DNA of 5,839 nt from a bacterium (GTDB taxonomy: Bacteria > CAIJMQ01 > JAADFP01), in assembly GCA_027021085.1 (NCBI GenBank), contig JALUVB010000185.1:1-5839 (forward strand), in the 5' to 3' direction. A model generated the notes under the pieces. That model saw nothing but the letters and a program-made list of their open reading frames with translations. It was not told the DNA's origin and made no database searches. Shown piece by piece: positions 1 through 5,839 of this stretch. Each line of letters begins with the position of its first letter. Positions within the stretch are counted from its first letter, which is position 1. A program made the translations under genes and the position numbers.

Positions 1-206
1 GACTTTATAGTGTGAATGGTAGTGGGTAGCGGGGAAATGGTAGCGAGTAGATAGTAGTTAGTAGCGAGGGGGAAGCAGGAAAGACTATAGACCTTAGACT
101 ATAGACTGTAGACTGGGAGAGGGAGCATAGTAAGCAGTGAACAGTGAATAGTAAGCAGTTAAGGGTCACATGGTATCCTGGTTCCCTGGTAATCCTGGTT
201 TCTCGG
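1..206 (+). repeat. Heptad-register mosaic repeat, arm 1 (left inverted arm)
   Basis: From base 19 to 165 the sequence divides without slippage into 21 units of 7 bases. Units at 19-67 mostly begin GTAG. Units at 82-116 begin AGAC (for example AGACTAT at 82 and 96). Units at 131-158 alternate TAAGCAG and TGAACAG-like forms. From 166 to 206 the period becomes about 8, each unit ending in CTGG or CGG (TATCCTGG at 174, TTCCCTGG at 182, one 9-base unit at 190). Bases 1-18 look like the end of another AGAC-type block in the same register, so the repeat probably continues past the left edge. The same module order occurs in reverse orientation at 2956-3141. In plus sense the TAG-bearing units place stops in all three frames, so it is not coding in that sense. 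Confidence 0.85.
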
Positions 207-255
207 TAAAGGGGATAGATTGCACAGGAATGACAAGAGGGGAATAGAAATAGGG

Positions 256-291
256 AAAAAGCAGTCAGAAAGGGCGACCCCCCCGCCTTTC
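256..291 (-). terminator. Weak terminator candidate after cbiO
   Basis: On the minus strand, starting inside the cbiO stop codon, GAAAGGCG (291-284) can pair with CGCCCTTTC (276-268) with one bulged C and a 7-base G-rich loop. A run of five T lies at 260-256, seven bases beyond the stem. The distance to the T run and the bulge make it a poor intrinsic terminator, but it is the only such structure after the last gene. The rest of 207-289 shows nothing else I can name. Confidence 0.3.
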
Positions 292-952
292 ACCCCTGCG
301 CTTTCAGCCGTCCATTCTCCAGGATATAGAGTTTCTCCGATACTTTTCCCAGAAAATCCATATCATGCGAAACTATACAATAGGTAAGCTGTTTTTGAGA
401 GGCGAGGAGGGCTACTATCCTCCCGGTGGTTTCCTGGTCAAGGGCAGTGGTGGGTTCATCCAGCAAGAGCACCCTGGGCTCCATGGCCAGGATAGTGGCC
501 AGAGCCACCAGTCTCTTTTCTCCGTGAGAAAGCGTGTGGGAAAACCTATCCCTCAGGTTTTCAATACACAGGAGAGAGCACATCTCTTCCACTATCCTTT
601 GCACTTCCTCGCGTGACTTCCTCAGGTTCAGAGGACCGAAGGCTATATCTTCTTCTACCGTGGGAGAAAAGAGCTGGTCGTCCGAATCCTGAAAAAGCAG
701 CCCGATACTCCTTCTCACCTCCCGGAAATCTTTCTCTTCCCTCCTCTCCCTGCCAAAAATTTTAATTACCCCGGCATCAGGCTTAATCAGCCCCATCATT
801 ACGTGGAGAAGCGTGGTCTTTCCGCTGCCATTTGTCCCCTTTATCCCCACCTTCTCCCCCGGGTAAAGATTAAAGTCTAGATTGCTCAACACCTCGCCCC
901 TTCCCGGGAAAGCGATACTTATACCGACAAGTTCAATAAGGGGCATACTCAT
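290..952 (-). CDS. cbiO: ECF nickel/cobalt transporter ATPase CbiO (NikO)
   Basis: Cytoplasmic ATPase that drives the nickel/cobalt ECF transporter. In the 220-residue form chosen here, Walker A is GTNGSGKTT (39-47), the Q-loop is at Q88 in a LFQDSDDQLFSPTVEEDIAFG context typical of CbiO, the ABC signature is LSHGEKR (141-147), Walker B is VLLLDEP (161-167), the D-loop is ALD (170-172) and the switch histidine is H196. All catalytic elements are intact. At about 220 residues it is a short CbiO without the C-terminal extension of longer homologues. The chosen ATG overlaps the cbiQ stop as ATGA, matching the GTGA overlap of the previous gene pair. An ATG two codons upstream (958) or two codons downstream (946) is also possible. 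No Shine-Dalgarno site favours any of them, so translation is probably coupled to cbiQ. It is the last gene of the operon. Confidence 0.95.
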   Translation of the reverse strand: MSMPLIELVGISIAFPGRGEVLSNLDFNLYPGEKVGIKGTNGSGKTTLLHVMMGLIKPDAGVIKIFGRERREEKDFREVRRSIGLLFQDSDDQLFSPTVEEDIAFGPLNLRKSREEVQRIVEEMCSLLCIENLRDRFSHTLSHGEKRLVALATILAMEPRVLLLDEPTTALDQETTGRIVALLASQKQLTYCIVSHDMDFLGKVSEKLYILENGRLKAQG

Positions 953-1698
953 AACCATTTAAGATAACATAAACCCAGAAAATAAAGAAAAAAAATCAGC
1001 CCGGCTAAACCATCCGCCTTCCTCCACCGAAAATGGTGCAGGGTCCAGAAAGTTCCCTGGAACCCCCGCGCCAGCATAGCCTGGTATATCCTCTGGGACC
1101 TCTCGTAGGCACGCAGGATAAGCATTCCTATCAGGTATCCTGTGGAACGATAAGTGTGCAGATTATTCCCCGGCTGAAATCCCCTGACCTTCGCCGCCTG
1201 GGACAGCCGGGTATATTCTCTGTGCATCACGGGTATATAGCGATAGGTAAAGTAGAATAACTGCACCAGCCTGGAAGGGAGCTTGAGATGATGCAGGGCA
1301 TGCACCAGATGGAAAATGGGGGAAGTAGAAAGCAACAGGAGGGTAGTAAGAAAAATCAGGTTGGATTTCCAGGTCAGTATAAGGCAGTAAAAAATCCCTT
1401 CCCGGGTAGCGGCAAGAGGGCCCAGGGTAAAGACTTGTTCCCCCGGAAAAGAAAAGGGGAGAAACAACCAGAGCAGTAAAATAAACCCGTTCACAGGCAA
1501 CATTCTCTTGGCCACCTCTTTTATGCGCAAACGGGAAAGGAAGAAAAGCACCAGGGGCAGGAAAGAAGCATAGAGAAGCACTGCGGGGCTTCTTTCCACT
1601 GCTATCAGGAAGGAATAGAGGGAAATAACCAGTATTTTCACGCGGGGATCCAGGGCGTGGAGAATACTTTTCCCTTGAGAGAAAGGAGAGTCTATCAC
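949..1698 (-). CDS. cbiQ: ECF nickel/cobalt transporter T component CbiQ (NikQ)
   Basis: Integral membrane coupling protein that transmits ATPase movements to the metal-binding S component. The 249 residues include hydrophobic stretches near 20-34, 39-54, 67-83, 103-123 and 230-247. The cytoplasmic region carries the two short Arg-Gly motifs that define T components: KVRGF (170-174) and LARGF (209-213), which in this family dock onto the ATPase. The N-terminal HALDPRVK (14-21) is also typical. The start is GTG, overlapping the nikL TGA stop by four bases (GTGA), with AGGGGG five bases upstream in the nikL coding end. This implies translational coupling. Length and motifs are normal for CbiQ. 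Metal specificity cannot be read from this subunit; nickel is inferred from the neighbouring NikL and NikK. Confidence 0.95.
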   Translation of the reverse strand: MIDSPFSQGKSILHALDPRVKILVISLYSFLIAVERSPAVLLYASFLPLVLFFLSRLRIKEVAKRMLPVNGFILLLWLFLPFSFPGEQVFTLGPLAATREGIFYCLILTWKSNLIFLTTLLLLSTSPIFHLVHALHHLKLPSRLVQLFYFTYRYIPVMHREYTRLSQAAKVRGFQPGNNLHTYRSTGYLIGMLILRAYERSQRIYQAMLARGFQGTFWTLHHFRWRKADGLAGLIFFLYFLGLCYLKWL

Positions 1699-2234
1699 TT
1701 TTTCCCCCTGCTCAAAAAGTAGAGAGCCACTCCGGCCAGCCCCAGGATATAGCCTATCCCTCCCAGGATATCCGTCAACCTGAGGCGGCGATTTTCCTCC
1801 TCTATCATTTTAATCACCGGCTTCATTGCTTTCTCCACAGAGACCTCCACTATCTTTTCTATCTCATTGCCTCCCAATTTTTTAGCCTCCACCCTCTCCG
1901 CTTTCTCTGTCTGCAAGGGCAACCCTCCTCCTATGGAAATAGAGGTTTCTGCCCGGTGCCCCATGCTGGCTAAAAGCACTATCTTCAAATCGCCTTTCCC
2001 CTGCGGCACAGGAAAAGCAAATTCTCCCTTTTCATTAGTCTTCCCCTCCAGGATTTTCCTGCCCTCCTGGTTATACACCTCAACCTTAGAGTCCCGCGCA
2101 GGAGTGCCGTCGCTGAAGTAACCCTCCAGGCAAATTTTATCTCCTTCCTTATAGGCAAATACATTCACCCGGTGAGCAAAGAGCGAAGAAGAAAGGAGAA
2201 GAAGAAAGCAAAAAAGAAAGATGCCTTTTCTCAT
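1695..2234 (-). CDS. nikL: Nickel ECF transporter accessory protein NikL (CbiL type)
   Basis: Exported, membrane-anchored accessory subunit that replaces NikN/CbiN in some nickel ECF transporters. The sequence shows a signal peptide (about 1-20, ending SLFA) and then a mature part that begins HRVNVFAY, a beta-rich domain resembling carboxypeptidase regulatory domains (about 21-108, with DGTPARDSKVEVY and a conserved-looking MGHRAE at 101-106), a charged helical stretch likely to be coiled (about 130-160) and one C-terminal membrane span (about 161-176) followed by SRGKK. H21 and H103 are candidate metal ligands. ATG start; the Shine-Dalgarno GGAGG lies nine bases upstream, inside the end of cbiM, with only four bases between the genes. 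The exact function of NikL is not settled, so the metal-binding role is inferred. The symbol nikL avoids confusion with the cobalamin gene cbiL. Confidence 0.85.
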   Translation of the reverse strand: MRKGIFLFCFLLLLSSSLFAHRVNVFAYKEGDKICLEGYFSDGTPARDSKVEVYNQEGRKILEGKTNEKGEFAFPVPQGKGDLKIVLLASMGHRAETSISIGGGLPLQTEKAERVEAKKLGGNEIEKIVEVSVEKAMKPVIKMIEEENRRLRLTDILGGIGYILGLAGVALYFLSRGKK

Positions 2235-2238
2235 TTTA

Positions 2239-2838
2239 TCAGCCCTCCAGAATTTCTGGTTTCACCTTTCTCAAAAATACCACAATAAACCCGGTAACCA
2301 CTCCCTCTATAAACATAATGGGAAGATGCACAATTATTACCAACCTGGCTACCTGCCGGAAATATTCTCCCGTAAACACCAGAGAAAGAGCCACCATCAG
2401 CCCGGAAAGAAGCACTCCCAGGAAACCGGCCAGGAAGCCGGCTATTCCGGCCAAGGCCGGGCTCTTATTTTTCACCCACACATGAAAAAGGAAGTAGCAA
2501 ATCACCGCAGGCAGTGCCATGTTCATGGTATTCACCCCCAGCGTGGTCAGCCCACCAAACTGGAAAAGAGCCGCCTGGAGAGTAAGTCCCAGCAAAATAG
2601 CCGGGAAAGCCGCCCAGCCCAGGAGTATCCCCACCAGCCCATTCAGAATAAGGTGTGCACTGGAAGGACCTACGGGAACATGAACAAGGGAAGCCACGAA
2701 GAAAGCAGAGGATAAAAGTGCTGTGCGGGGTATTTTCTCCTCCTTCATTCCCCTCAGTCCCAGGGCAGTGCCTACCATGGTAACGCCTGCCCCGCTAAGG
2801 AGCACCGGAGCGGAAAGAATTCCTTCAGAAATATGCAT
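2239..2838 (-). CDS. cbiM: ECF nickel/cobalt transporter substrate-binding membrane protein CbiM (NikM)
   Basis: Substrate-specific membrane component that binds Ni(II) or Co(II). The 199 residues are strongly hydrophobic and would form about six or seven membrane helices. The protein begins MHISEG. In characterised NikM/CbiM proteins the free N-terminus and His2 enter the membrane core and bind the metal, which fixes this ATG as the start. Other motifs: HVPVGPSSAHLILNG (63-77), with H63 and H72 (H72 aligns best with the third metal-ligand histidine), GGLTTLGVNTMNM (105-117) and HLPIMFIEG (181-189). There is no convincing Shine-Dalgarno site: only TAGAG touches the ATG. A possible 15-codon ORF ends two bases upstream, so reinitiation is one explanation; read-through from nikK is another source of transcript. 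It lies first in the tightly packed M-L-Q-O block. Nickel rather than cobalt is inferred from NikL and NikK. Confidence 0.95.
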   Translation of the reverse strand: MHISEGILSAPVLLSGAGVTMVGTALGLRGMKEEKIPRTALLSSAFFVASLVHVPVGPSSAHLILNGLVGILLGWAAFPAILLGLTLQAALFQFGGLTTLGVNTMNMALPAVICYFLFHVWVKNKSPALAGIAGFLAGFLGVLLSGLMVALSLVFTGEYFRQVARLVIIVHLPIMFIEGVVTGFIVVFLRKVKPEILEG

Positions 2839-2840
2839 CT

Positions 2841-2888
2841 CTATATTAAAAGAGTTGTGAGTTGCAGGTTGTGAGTTACCAGTTCCAT
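2841..2888 (-). CDS. Possible 15-residue leader ORF upstream of cbiM
   Basis: An ATG at 2888 opens MELVTHNLQLTTLLI and a TAG stop two bases before the cbiM ATG. A GGAG core lies five bases upstream of the ATG within a purine-rich stretch, a better ribosome site than cbiM has. Most of it is written in the GTT-type heptad repeat (2854-2888), so the open frame could be chance. I recognise no homologue. If translated, it could deliver ribosomes to cbiM by reinitiation. Confidence 0.3.
   Translation of the reverse strand: MELVTHNLQLTTLLI
2854..2888 (+). repeat. Short GTT-type heptad block
   Basis: Five consecutive 7-base units each begin GTT on the plus strand: GTTGTGA at 2854 and again at 2868, with GTTGCAG between them, then GTTACCA and GTTCCAT. 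The period matches the two long arms but the unit sequence is different. It lies between arm 2 and cbiM. Bases 2889-2955, between this block and arm 2, contain no repeat or structure I can name. Confidence 0.7.
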
Positions 2889-2955
2889 CTGCTCTCCCAC
2901 CTTTTTTAAAATCCTAAAATCCACGCTAACCTCGCGGAAACCATAATGCTTGCTC

Positions 2956-3141
2956 CCAAGAAACCAGGATTACCAGGGAACCAGGATACCGACTTACCCC
3001 TAACTGCTTACTATTCACTGTTCACTGTGCTCCCTCTCCCAGTCTAAAGTCTAAAGTCTGTAGTCTTTCCTGCTTCCCCCTCGCTACTAACTACTCGCTA
3101 CCCACTACTGACCACAGTCTATGGTCTAAAGCCTAACGTCT
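2956..3141 (-). repeat. Heptad-register mosaic repeat, arm 2 (right inverted arm)
   Basis: Read on the minus strand, this repeats the module order of 1-206. AGAC-type units lie at 3141-3114, then a 5-base spacer (3113-3109; arm 1 has a 5-base spacer at the same place). From 3108 to 2997 come 16 uninterrupted 7-base units: GTAG type, a GGGGGAA and GCAGGAA pair identical to arm 1, AGAC type (AGACTTT twice), GAGAGGG, then TGAACAG and TAAGCAG types. Bases 2996-2956 are the 8-base CTGG block, with TATCCTGG, TTCCCTGG and a 9-base unit exactly as in arm 1. The outer units overlap the 3' end of nikK and provide its stop codon. Confidence 0.85.
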
Positions 3142-3916
3142 TCCCTCCATACGCCTTCACCCAGATAACCGCGCCGATTTCCACCGGTTTTTCTTCACCC
3201 TTATAGCTTATCTTTTTTTCGTCTTCATTCAAAGCGGCAAATCCCCACCAGCCTGCCCAGGGAATAGTATAAGTAAAGACGCCATTAGCATCACTTTTTA
3301 CTACCTGGGTGACAAAAGTCTCCCGGGGAGCTTTTACCTTCCCCTCTTCATTAAAATACTCCACCTCCACCTCCGTAAAAGGAGCTATCTTGCCATTTAC
3401 CTTTACCACTCCCTGGAAGGTATTTCCGGCATACAGGCCGTAAGGACGGGTAAGCGGCACTATCTCTGTTTTTAAGCCTACCTCCTTATCCCAGCCTTCT
3501 TCCCGGCCAAAGGCATCCACAATCACCTTGGTATAATGCACAATAAACTTATCCTCTGCCGGTTCCCAGTAAGGCTGCGGCGCACAGTAAAAAACATAAT
3601 CACCCGGACGCTTCAGGGTAAACCTGGCCACCCATCCCTCATGCGCTTTCTGGTCAGCATAGCCCTTCACCCGCACCGGTTGCAAAGAATCAAGCAGCGA
3701 ATACTTTTTCCCGCGCACCATCACCCCGAACTGCACGGGTTTTTTCATATCCAGGCTATTTCCTGCAAAAGGATGAGCAAACATCACCCGAAGGGTAATT
3801 ACATTACTTTCTCCCTGCTGCACAATATCCTGAGAGGGAATAATCATACCAAAGTGCGCATAGGATGCAGTAGCCAGCAAGAGAGAAAAACCGACTAAAA
3901 AAACGCTTTTTAACAT
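3119..3916 (-). CDS. nikK: Exported DUF4198 protein, nickel ECF accessory NikK (CbiK type)
   Basis: A 265-residue DUF4198-family protein, found in other genomes beside nikMLQO and regarded as an extra extracytoplasmic component of nickel uptake; its biochemical role is not established. It has a signal peptide (1-20, ending ASYA), after which the mature chain starts HFGMIIPS. Typical family stretches follow: [12 protein letters not shown] (46-57), a [20 protein letters not shown] region in the middle, AFGREEGWD, a second beta domain beginning near TRPYGLYAG, and [11 protein letters not shown] close to the C-terminus. No C-terminal anchor is visible, so it may be periplasmic or surface released. 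The start is firm: GGAGG lies six bases before the ATG. Promoter elements and a dyad lie just upstream. The last seven residues (KTLGFRP) and the TAG stop fall in repeat arm 2, so the original end may have differed. The symbol nikK avoids confusion with the cobaltochelatase gene cbiK. Confidence 0.85.
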
Positions 3917-4018: not shown

Positions 4019-5839
4019 TTATCCCAGCCCAAGTGCTTTACCTCCCTGGAAAACCAAAAAAGCAAGTATCCAGGCTATGCCAGTGGTGTAAAAAGCAGCA
4101 AAAAGCGGCCAGCGGAAGGAATTGGTTTCCCGGTAAATTACCCCGATAGTTGCCACACACGGTATGTAGAGAAGAACAAACACCATGAACGCGTAAGCAA
4201 CCAGGGGAGTCCACACCTTTCTTCCGTCAGGCCACTTTGCCTTCCTGAGCGCTTCCCGCAAACTTTCTTCCTCCTCTCCCACGGCATGGAGGGTTCCCAG
4301 AGTACCCACCACTATCTCCTTGGCAATAAACCCGGCCATAAGTGCTACCGCAGGCTTCCAGTCCCCGAAGCCAAGAGGCCTAAATACCGGCGCCACAGCT
4401 TTCCCTATCCTTCCCGCAAAGCTCTTCTCCAGCTTTTCTTCTGCTCTCTCGTTTTTAAGTTTACTCACCAATTCCTCTTTATCTTTAGCTTTCTCTATAA
4501 GCGCCTGGTAATTCCTGGAGTATTGAATGTTATAAGGGAAATTGCTTAGGGCCCAGATTAGAATACACCCGGCAAAGATTACGGTGCCGGCTTTCTTAAG
4601 GTACACACCCCCTCTCTCCCACATGTGCAGCAAGGCACCTTTCAAGGTAGGCAGTCTGTAAGGCGGAAGTTCCATAACAAAAGGCATGGGAGCCCCCTTG
4701 AAGAGATACTTCCTGAAGAGTTTTGCCATAATGATTGCCACCAGTATTCCCAGCAGATAAAGAGAAAAAAGCACATTACCCGCATGCCTTTCAGAGAAAA
4801 ATGCCCCCACAAACAGGGTATACACTGGCAATCTCGCTCCACAGCTCATAAACGGATTTACCAGAATGGTCACCAGCCGTGCCTTTTTATCCTCTATCAC
4901 CCTGGTGGCCATAATTCCCGGCAGATTACACCCGAACCCCAGCATCATGGGAATAAAGGAACGGCCGTGGAGCCCTATCTTGTGCATCAGTCTATCCATG
5001 ATGAAAGCACCCCTGGCCAGGTAACCGGAATCTTCCAGAATAGCAATGGCAAGAAACAAGAGAAAAATAATGGGGACAAACACCAGTACACTGCCCACTC
5101 CCCCGATAATGCCGTCCACCACCAGGGAATGAATAGCACTCTCTTCAGGCAATAAATTACCCAGGAAACCTCCCAGCCAGCCCATGAAACTTTCAATCCA
5201 GCCCATCATGGGTTCGCTCAGCTTAAAAACAAGTTTAAACATCAGCCACATCATGCCCAGGAAAATAGGCAGCCCCAGTATCCGGTTGAGAAGAATTCTG
5301 TCTATCCGGTCAGAAATGGTATGTCTTACCTCGTAACTCTTCTTCACTGCCCGGGAACAGGCGCCGCTTATAAATCCATAGCGTCTGTCCGGAATCACCG
5401 CCTCTACCTCATCTCCGAAAACACCCTCCAGATGCGCGCTGCTCTTTTCTGCCTGTGACAGAATCTCCCGGCCAAAAGCACTTGCCTTTACCCTCTCCCT
5501 GACTTCTTCATCATTTTCCAGAAGCTTCACCGCTATCCACCTGGCAGCATACTTTCCCGCCAGCTCCCCATCCTTTCTTACTATTTCCTCAATCTTTCTT
5601 ATCTCTTCCTCAATCTCCTTTCCATACCTTATGGGCTTCCTTCTTAAGAAAATTTTCCCCTTACTCAAAGCAATTGCCCTTTCCAGAAGCTCCTCCATAC
5701 CCTGCCTCCTGGTGGCAACAGCTGGAATACAGGGAACACCAAGCAGTTCCGAGAGTTTCTTCTCATCTATCCTTAACCCCATCTTATTAGCCAGGTCCCA
5801 CATATTCAGGGTAATGATTAAATTAACTCCTAATTCCAT
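4019..5839 (-). CDS. feoB: Ferrous iron transport protein B (FeoB), 5' end outside the window
   Basis: GTP-dependent Fe(II) permease of the inner membrane. The 606 residues here include the G4 guanine-specificity motif NMWD (12-15) and a G5-like VATRRQG (41-47), so the P-loop and switch regions, roughly 100-130 residues, lie beyond the right edge. The ATG at the edge is an internal codon. A charged helical linker (about 70-150) leads to the membrane part: EDSGYLARGAFIMD (269-282), Gate motif 1 GFGCNLPGIMATR (301-313) with NPFMSCGARLPVYTLF (328-343), Gate motif 2 around FRPLGFGDWKPAVALMAGFIAKEIVVGTLGTL (486-517) and YIPCVATIGVIYRET (558-572). Cysteines C304, C333 and C561 are in their usual family contexts. 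The C-terminus is intact, with no frameshift. No feoA or feoC lies downstream; feoA could lie upstream outside the window. The gap to nikK has no obvious terminator, so some read-through is possible. Confidence 0.97.
   Translation of the reverse strand: MELGVNLIITLNMWDLANKMGLRIDEKKLSELLGVPCIPAVATRRQGMEELLERAIALSKGKIFLRRKPIRYGKEIEEEIRKIEEIVRKDGELAGKYAARWIAVKLLENDEEVRERVKASAFGREILSQAEKSSAHLEGVFGDEVEAVIPDRRYGFISGACSRAVKKSYEVRHTISDRIDRILLNRILGLPIFLGMMWLMFKLVFKLSEPMMGWIESFMGWLGGFLGNLLPEESAIHSLVVDGIIGGVGSVLVFVPIIFLLFLAIAILEDSGYLARGAFIMDRLMHKIGLHGRSFIPMMLGFGCNLPGIMATRVIEDKKARLVTILVNPFMSCGARLPVYTLFVGAFFSERHAGNVLFSLYLLGILVAIIMAKLFRKYLFKGAPMPFVMELPPYRLPTLKGALLHMWERGGVYLKKAGTVIFAGCILIWALSNFPYNIQYSRNYQALIEKAKDKEELVSKLKNERAEEKLEKSFAGRIGKAVAPVFRPLGFGDWKPAVALMAGFIAKEIVVGTLGTLHAVGEEEESLREALRKAKWPDGRKVWTPLVAYAFMVFVLLYIPCVATIGVIYRETNSFRWPLFAAFYTTGIAWILAFLVFQGGKALGLG

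Follow-up and report, generated by a model that had tools for sequence, protein, structure and literature searches.

Two inverted repeat arms flank the cbiM-nikL-cbiQ-cbiO transporter genes in a 5,839-nucleotide stretch of bacterial DNA (contig JALUVB010000185.1 of assembly GCA_027021085.1; GTDB lineage Bacteria; CAIJMQ01; JAADFP01), which we call the window. We propose, with a probability of roughly 0.7, that both arms belong to a polar composite repeat which is specific to the genus, is dispersed, resides in gene gaps, is copied between its blocks and inherits its place and, mostly, its strand. Blocks of this repeat, hereafter the mosaic, are built from several families of seven-base units (heptads). 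They are dispersed through the genome, keep a fixed polarity and module order, prefer gaps between genes, turn over in content between sister species while site and strand persist, and supply stop codons. The host genome is a draft of 1.93 Mb in 307 contigs, of which ∼731 kb was analysed in detail; it was compared with a single draft assembly of a congener (442 kb analysed in detail), and open reading frames (ORFs) were called simply in both.

Arm 1 (1-206, plus strand) occupies the gap downstream of cbiO and arm 2 (2956-3141, minus strand) the gap between nikK and cbiM. Positions 40-206 align in inverted orientation with 3108-2956 at 142 of 168 positions (∼85% identity, E=2e-40); the local alignment scores 209, whereas 500 dinucleotide shuffles average 19 (standard deviation 2.6, maximum 32) and the same-strand comparison gives 18. 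The differences between the aligned arms include two indels of exactly 7 nt, the length of one heptad. In both arms the modules follow the order C (GTAGNNR heptads), A (TAGACYN heptads), B (AGTRARY heptads) and E (GGTATCCTGG, the CTGG module), with E innermost. The module scan places C at 19-32 and 40-67, A at 88-115, B at 129-156 and E at 172-206 in arm 1 (plus strand), and E at 2956-2990, B at 3006-3026, A at 3040-3053 and C at 3081-3108 in arm 2 (minus strand). Arm 2 continues outwards with a further A run (3114-3141, minus strand; A heptads at 3115-3128, degenerate to 3141), and the stop codon of nikK (TAG, 3119-3121, minus strand) is the TAG of one of these heptads (TTTAGACCATAGAC). In the congener, too, the stop of nikK falls in a TAGAC heptad, in a slightly shifted position. 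A previous reading of the window, made from its letters alone (the sequence-only reading), had described inverted arms sharing modules in a shared order around exactly the four core genes, with nikK and feoB outside; the alignment, the ORFs and the Pfam matches all bear this description out. It had left two explanations side by side, a repeat-mediated insertion or inversion of the transporter cassette and a repeat family settling in the gaps of this genome. Only the second is upheld by what follows.

Searching the genome with arm 1 gave at least 105 matches, from the 40 candidate stretches scored out of 188. On contigs picked by number alone, 26 blocks were found in 347 kb, corresponding to ∼145 blocks per genome, and reversed-sequence controls yielded none. 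Triple heptads of the TAGACYN type match 246 times in this genome, 59 times in the congener and 0-2 times in the 58 other genomes; the composite of A then B heptads matches 166 times here and four times in the congener, with no match in 384 other genomes or in viral contigs. Occupancy depends on gap size: a block is present in 1 of 337 gaps shorter than 50 bp, in 22 of the 58 that measure 200-399 bp and in 18 of the 27 that measure 400-799 bp. Successive blocks on a contig lie on the same strand in 18 cases and on opposite strands in 17 (median spacing 2.8 kb, on contigs mostly selected by hits); on number-picked contigs, where spacing is wider, the ratio is 5:3. An inverted pair of arms is thus the expected outcome of random block orientation. 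The bracket itself arises because cbiM, nikL, cbiQ and cbiO overlap or lie only a few bases apart, and the first gaps able to hold a block, on either side, are both occupied. With the same mosaic in so many unrelated gaps, the bracketing is essentially coincidental, as the sequence-only reading had said it would then be. Replication direction was considered as a cause of block strand and is unsupported, since adjacent blocks differ in strand as often as they agree.

The corresponding locus of the congener has feoB-nikK-cbiM-nikL-cbiQ-cbiO in identical order and orientation, at 87.5-88% DNA identity. Mosaic is present in both corresponding gaps, with unrelated content, and that of the nikK-cbiM gap lies on the same strand as arm 2. 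These observations bear on the proposal of a mobile cassette, according to which cbiM-nikL-cbiQ-cbiO would have been moved or inverted by a composite element, with the arms as its terminal inverted repeats. The proposal draws on the similar inverted arms around exactly four genes and on the neighbour beyond the mosaic downstream of cbiO, which differs between the species (a flippase-like gene in the congener, contig C224 with a tRNA-Pro here), so that, judging from gene order, a rearrangement with its breakpoint at this mosaic is possible; but the two loci are collinear with no gain or loss of the cassette, ∼145 blocks in both orientations mean that arm sequence is not specific to the ends of an element, relative strands of neighbouring blocks are random, and the cassette holds no internal gap for the repeat. 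None of the six Pfam-scanned genes of the window is a transposase, in line with the sequence-only reading, which had noticed neither a transposase nor a target-site duplication. We therefore regard a mobile cassette as very improbable.

Comparison of the two species shows that block content turns over faster than the surrounding genes. The DNA flanking orthologous gaps is ∼85% identical; the mosaics in 15 orthologous gaps align with a mean score of 47, no better than the 43 of non-orthologous gaps between species, and paralogous blocks within the genome average 98. Exact shared stretches of 60-118 bp, crossing several modules, occur in unrelated gaps of the genome, and it is from these that we infer copying between blocks, which would rewrite block content between sister species. 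Position is more stable: of 17 gaps occupied here, 12 are occupied in the congener, and the retained blocks agree in strand in ten cases and disagree in two (p=0.039). One of the strand exceptions (locus L027) combines a conserved same-strand edge with a large opposite-strand addition confined to this genome. Elsewhere in the genome, the congener has little or no mosaic at three orthologous sites, and neither a clean insertion boundary nor a target duplication was found there.

The internal organization of the blocks is constrained. Firstly, modules share their polarity: the strand agrees with that of module A at ratios of 52:3 for B, 52:3 for C, 29:1 for E and 10:1 for D (AACTNRC heptads). 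Secondly, modules are ordered, A preceding B 59:4 and B preceding E 36:0, which gives the general layout of GTAGNNR heptads, TAGACYN heptads, a GGGAG spacer, AGTRARY heptads and the GGTATCCTGG module, often followed by a TGTCATGCC...GGCATCCA palindrome. Heptad families also rank top in unsupervised 12-mer counts on the number-picked contigs. Thirdly, adjacent heptads are rarely identical. Counting identical runs once, and bearing in mind that related copies are not independent, we found identical neighbours in 19 of 274 B pairs (shuffle means 33 and 49) and 7 of 148 C pairs (shuffle means 21 and 23), with none of 1000 shuffles as low in either family; for A the count (17 of 225) is low against the position-specific shuffle only. 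Runs end near 5 units for A, at 4-5 for B and at 4 for C. In the congener neighbour identity is low as well for A and C, and weakly so for B. Some congener blocks, including those on contig G001:C23, carry further repeats that are absent from the window, namely TTTAGAG/TTTAGGG heptads, GTGAGTAA octads and a CGTTTCGCGCTACNNAACCGCAACCG string.

This organization can be set against that of known heptanucleotide repeats. Most genomes have more heptanucleotides than any other kind of long simple repeat, and slippage has been proposed for them (Mrazek 2007, as cited in PMC4679880). Like the short tandem repeats (STRR) of filamentous cyanobacteria, which the sequence-only reading had named, and the long simple sequence repeats (LSSR) of Mrazek 2007, the mosaic consists of tandem seven-base units, is intergenic and is present in many copies per genome. 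One might suppose, then, that slippage expanded such repeats separately in each gap, and the unit length points that way, as do the 7-nt indels: indel lengths between paralogous blocks peak at 7 nt (262 cases, against 137 at 6 nt and 99 at 8 nt). TAGAC heptad arrays also exist in many phyla, mostly as uniform TAGACNN arrays (in Bacteroidota, Brachyspira, Omnitrophota, Holophagales, Photobacterium and others). In those other phyla, however, 64% of neighbouring units are identical and arrays reach 19 units, whereas here neighbours are identical below chance and run length is capped at 4-5 units. As read from the heptad runs, avoidance of identical neighbours together with a length ceiling is the opposite of the trace that slippage would leave. 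Moreover, exact identity over 106-118 bp across several modules in unrelated gaps requires the copying of segments and speaks against slippage, which we judge an unlikely origin. Unlike STRR/LSSR, the mosaic joins several heptad families in fixed order and polarity. The TAACTGA direct repeats of marine Beggiatoaceae consist of a single uniform heptamer placed mostly just upstream of starts, and a regulatory role was proposed for them (MacGregor 2015, PMC4679880); the mosaic differs in having multiple degenerate families that often stand at gene ends and supply stops. The mosaic thus resembles known heptanucleotide repeats in the length of its unit, in its number of copies and in lying between genes, but is set apart by its ordered composite structure, its polarity, its shortage of identical neighbours, the ceiling on run length and its placement at gene ends. 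A literature search, which reached few subscription papers, found no description of the mosaic.

The dispersed, polar and intergenic blocks with some palindromes also recall REP/BIME elements and their RAYT transposases. If the blocks were REP/MITE-like elements, moved in trans by a Y1 transposase of the RAYT or IS200 type, their fixed polarity and frequent palindrome would fit, and the genome does encode two Y1_Tnp proteins (PF01797). The longer of these genes, however, a RAYT-like gene on contig C45 (locus L265, 839-1075), lies between palindromes of its own (TTACACCCCCGGGGTGTAA type) that are unlike the mosaic palindrome, and the other, on contig C298, has no mosaic modules nearby; neither a clean insertion nor a target duplication marks the three congener sites where mosaic is scarce or absent, a search of the genome gave no reverse transcriptase, and heptad arrays, which set the mosaic apart from REP/BIME, dominate the blocks. 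This origin appears to us a poor candidate, weaker than slippage. The palindrome module (TGTCATGCCTGCGAAAGCAGGCATCCA) has a layout that we take to be like that of dRS3/GGGAATGAC-type palindromic repeats, the likeness being one of layout only; here the palindrome is one module joined to heptad arrays, unlike in those repeats.

On their sense strand the heptads stop translation. Runs of three units contain stops in all three frames in 77 of 77 cases for A, 88 of 88 for B and 58 of 58 for C, as against 13, 0 and 0 in antisense; this results from the unit cores (TAG, TGA/TAA and TAG) combined with a period of 7, and is partly inherent in the module definitions. Because the sense strand stops in all frames, a block can abut or replace a gene end without lengthening the protein, as at nikK. 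Among sampled genes, 20 have their stop within a same-strand run here and 1 within an opposite-strand run (14 and 4 in the congener), nikK being among the genes with a mosaic-supplied stop in both species. Here 21 of 36 sense blocks lie within 30 bp of the stop of the preceding gene, as do 9 of 26 antisense blocks; the corresponding counts in the congener are 18 of 22 and 2 of 11. Of the sense blocks, 26 of 34 here (23 of 27 in the congener) lie more than 100 bp from the next start.

A selected function in gene regulation could be envisaged, in which an RNA- or DNA-binding regulator recognises the heptads as arrayed sites, each unit with a conserved core and a free spacer. Fixed cores with 2-3 variable positions drawn from a restricted set, the capped number of units, the fixed polarity and the retention of site and strand as content changes are consistent with this, as is the regulatory role proposed for the TAACTGA repeats (PMC4679880). 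Yet no known protein is a candidate and the blocks are placed both sense and antisense, so we consider binding-site arrays improbable, much as we do slippage. A more specific version of our reading, which we put forward tentatively and think doubtful, sees the mosaic as a self-copying polar element, its heptads working as an array of translational stops in three frames: it would survive by capping gene ends, the purging of identical neighbours would hold it to a few units, and site and strand would be inherited while the sequence is rewritten.

For the dispersed composite repeat that we favour, the following course may be imagined. Blocks would copy or convert segments among themselves within the genome, by ectopic conversion or segmental duplication; each block would require a gene gap, where built-in stops would make it tolerable; identical adjacent heptads would be removed by deletion; and the location and, mostly, the strand of a block would be passed down by inheritance. 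Several points weigh against this proposal. No copying enzyme was found and no copying event was observed. The strand concordance comes from only 12 gaps, which share ancestry, and the detailed analysis covered the ∼731 kb of the 1.93 Mb given above, with simple ORF calls. The fourth heptad family, D, lacks three-frame stops, and codirectional gaps favour the sense orientation only weakly overall (25:15 with p=0.15 here, and 18:7 with p=0.04 in the congener). Furthermore, any ORF that enters the sense strand has to stop there, which makes part of the stop asymmetry mechanical; it shows that the mosaic supplies stops, but selection for doing so does not follow from it. The mosaic provides the stops of a measurable share of genes, and ordered polar heptad composites that change faster than the surrounding genes offer testable handles on the spread of repeats and its limits. 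In genomes of this kind, an inverted repeat pair that flanks an operon does not necessarily mark a mobile cassette.

All six genes of the window lie on the minus strand. They encode the ABC transporter ATPase CbiO (290-958; PF00005, E=2e-31), the transmembrane protein CbiQ (949-1698; PF02361, E=9e-37), whose gene overlaps cbiO and nikL, a NikL-like small protein of 179 aa (1695-2234), assigned from its ORF and position, the substrate-specific component CbiM/NikM (2239-2838; PF01891, E=6e-60), 95% identical in the congener, a NikK-like DUF4198 protein (3119-3916; PF10670, E=5e-60) and FeoB (4019-5839; PF07664, PF17910 and PF07670), which is incomplete, being cut by the contig end. The NikL-like protein has no Pfam match above the cut-off, only a sub-threshold match to bMG3, and no Rfam family matches the window. 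Arm 1 begins at the contig edge, and positions 1-67 are an exact copy of the last 67 bp of contig C224 (7204-7270). Inward from this overlap C224 continues with non-repeat DNA and then the tRNA-Pro, with no mosaic in between; the end overlap suggests that arm 1 is preceded by the tRNA-Pro together with a methyltransferase-like gene. Overlaps of 200 bases between contigs were rejected as meaningless, as they came from masked, all-N contigs.

Inside the supposed bracket, 13 bp upstream of the cbiM start, lies a D heptad array of the AACTCAC type (GAGTTGT/AACTCAC; 2851-2886, minus strand), which is present in the congener too and aligns well with it, unlike the arms. The nikK-feoB gap of the window measures 102 bp, whereas the congener (G001:C23, ∼2390-3680) has an extra gene of ∼1.27 kb at this place, encoding a putative outer-membrane porin.

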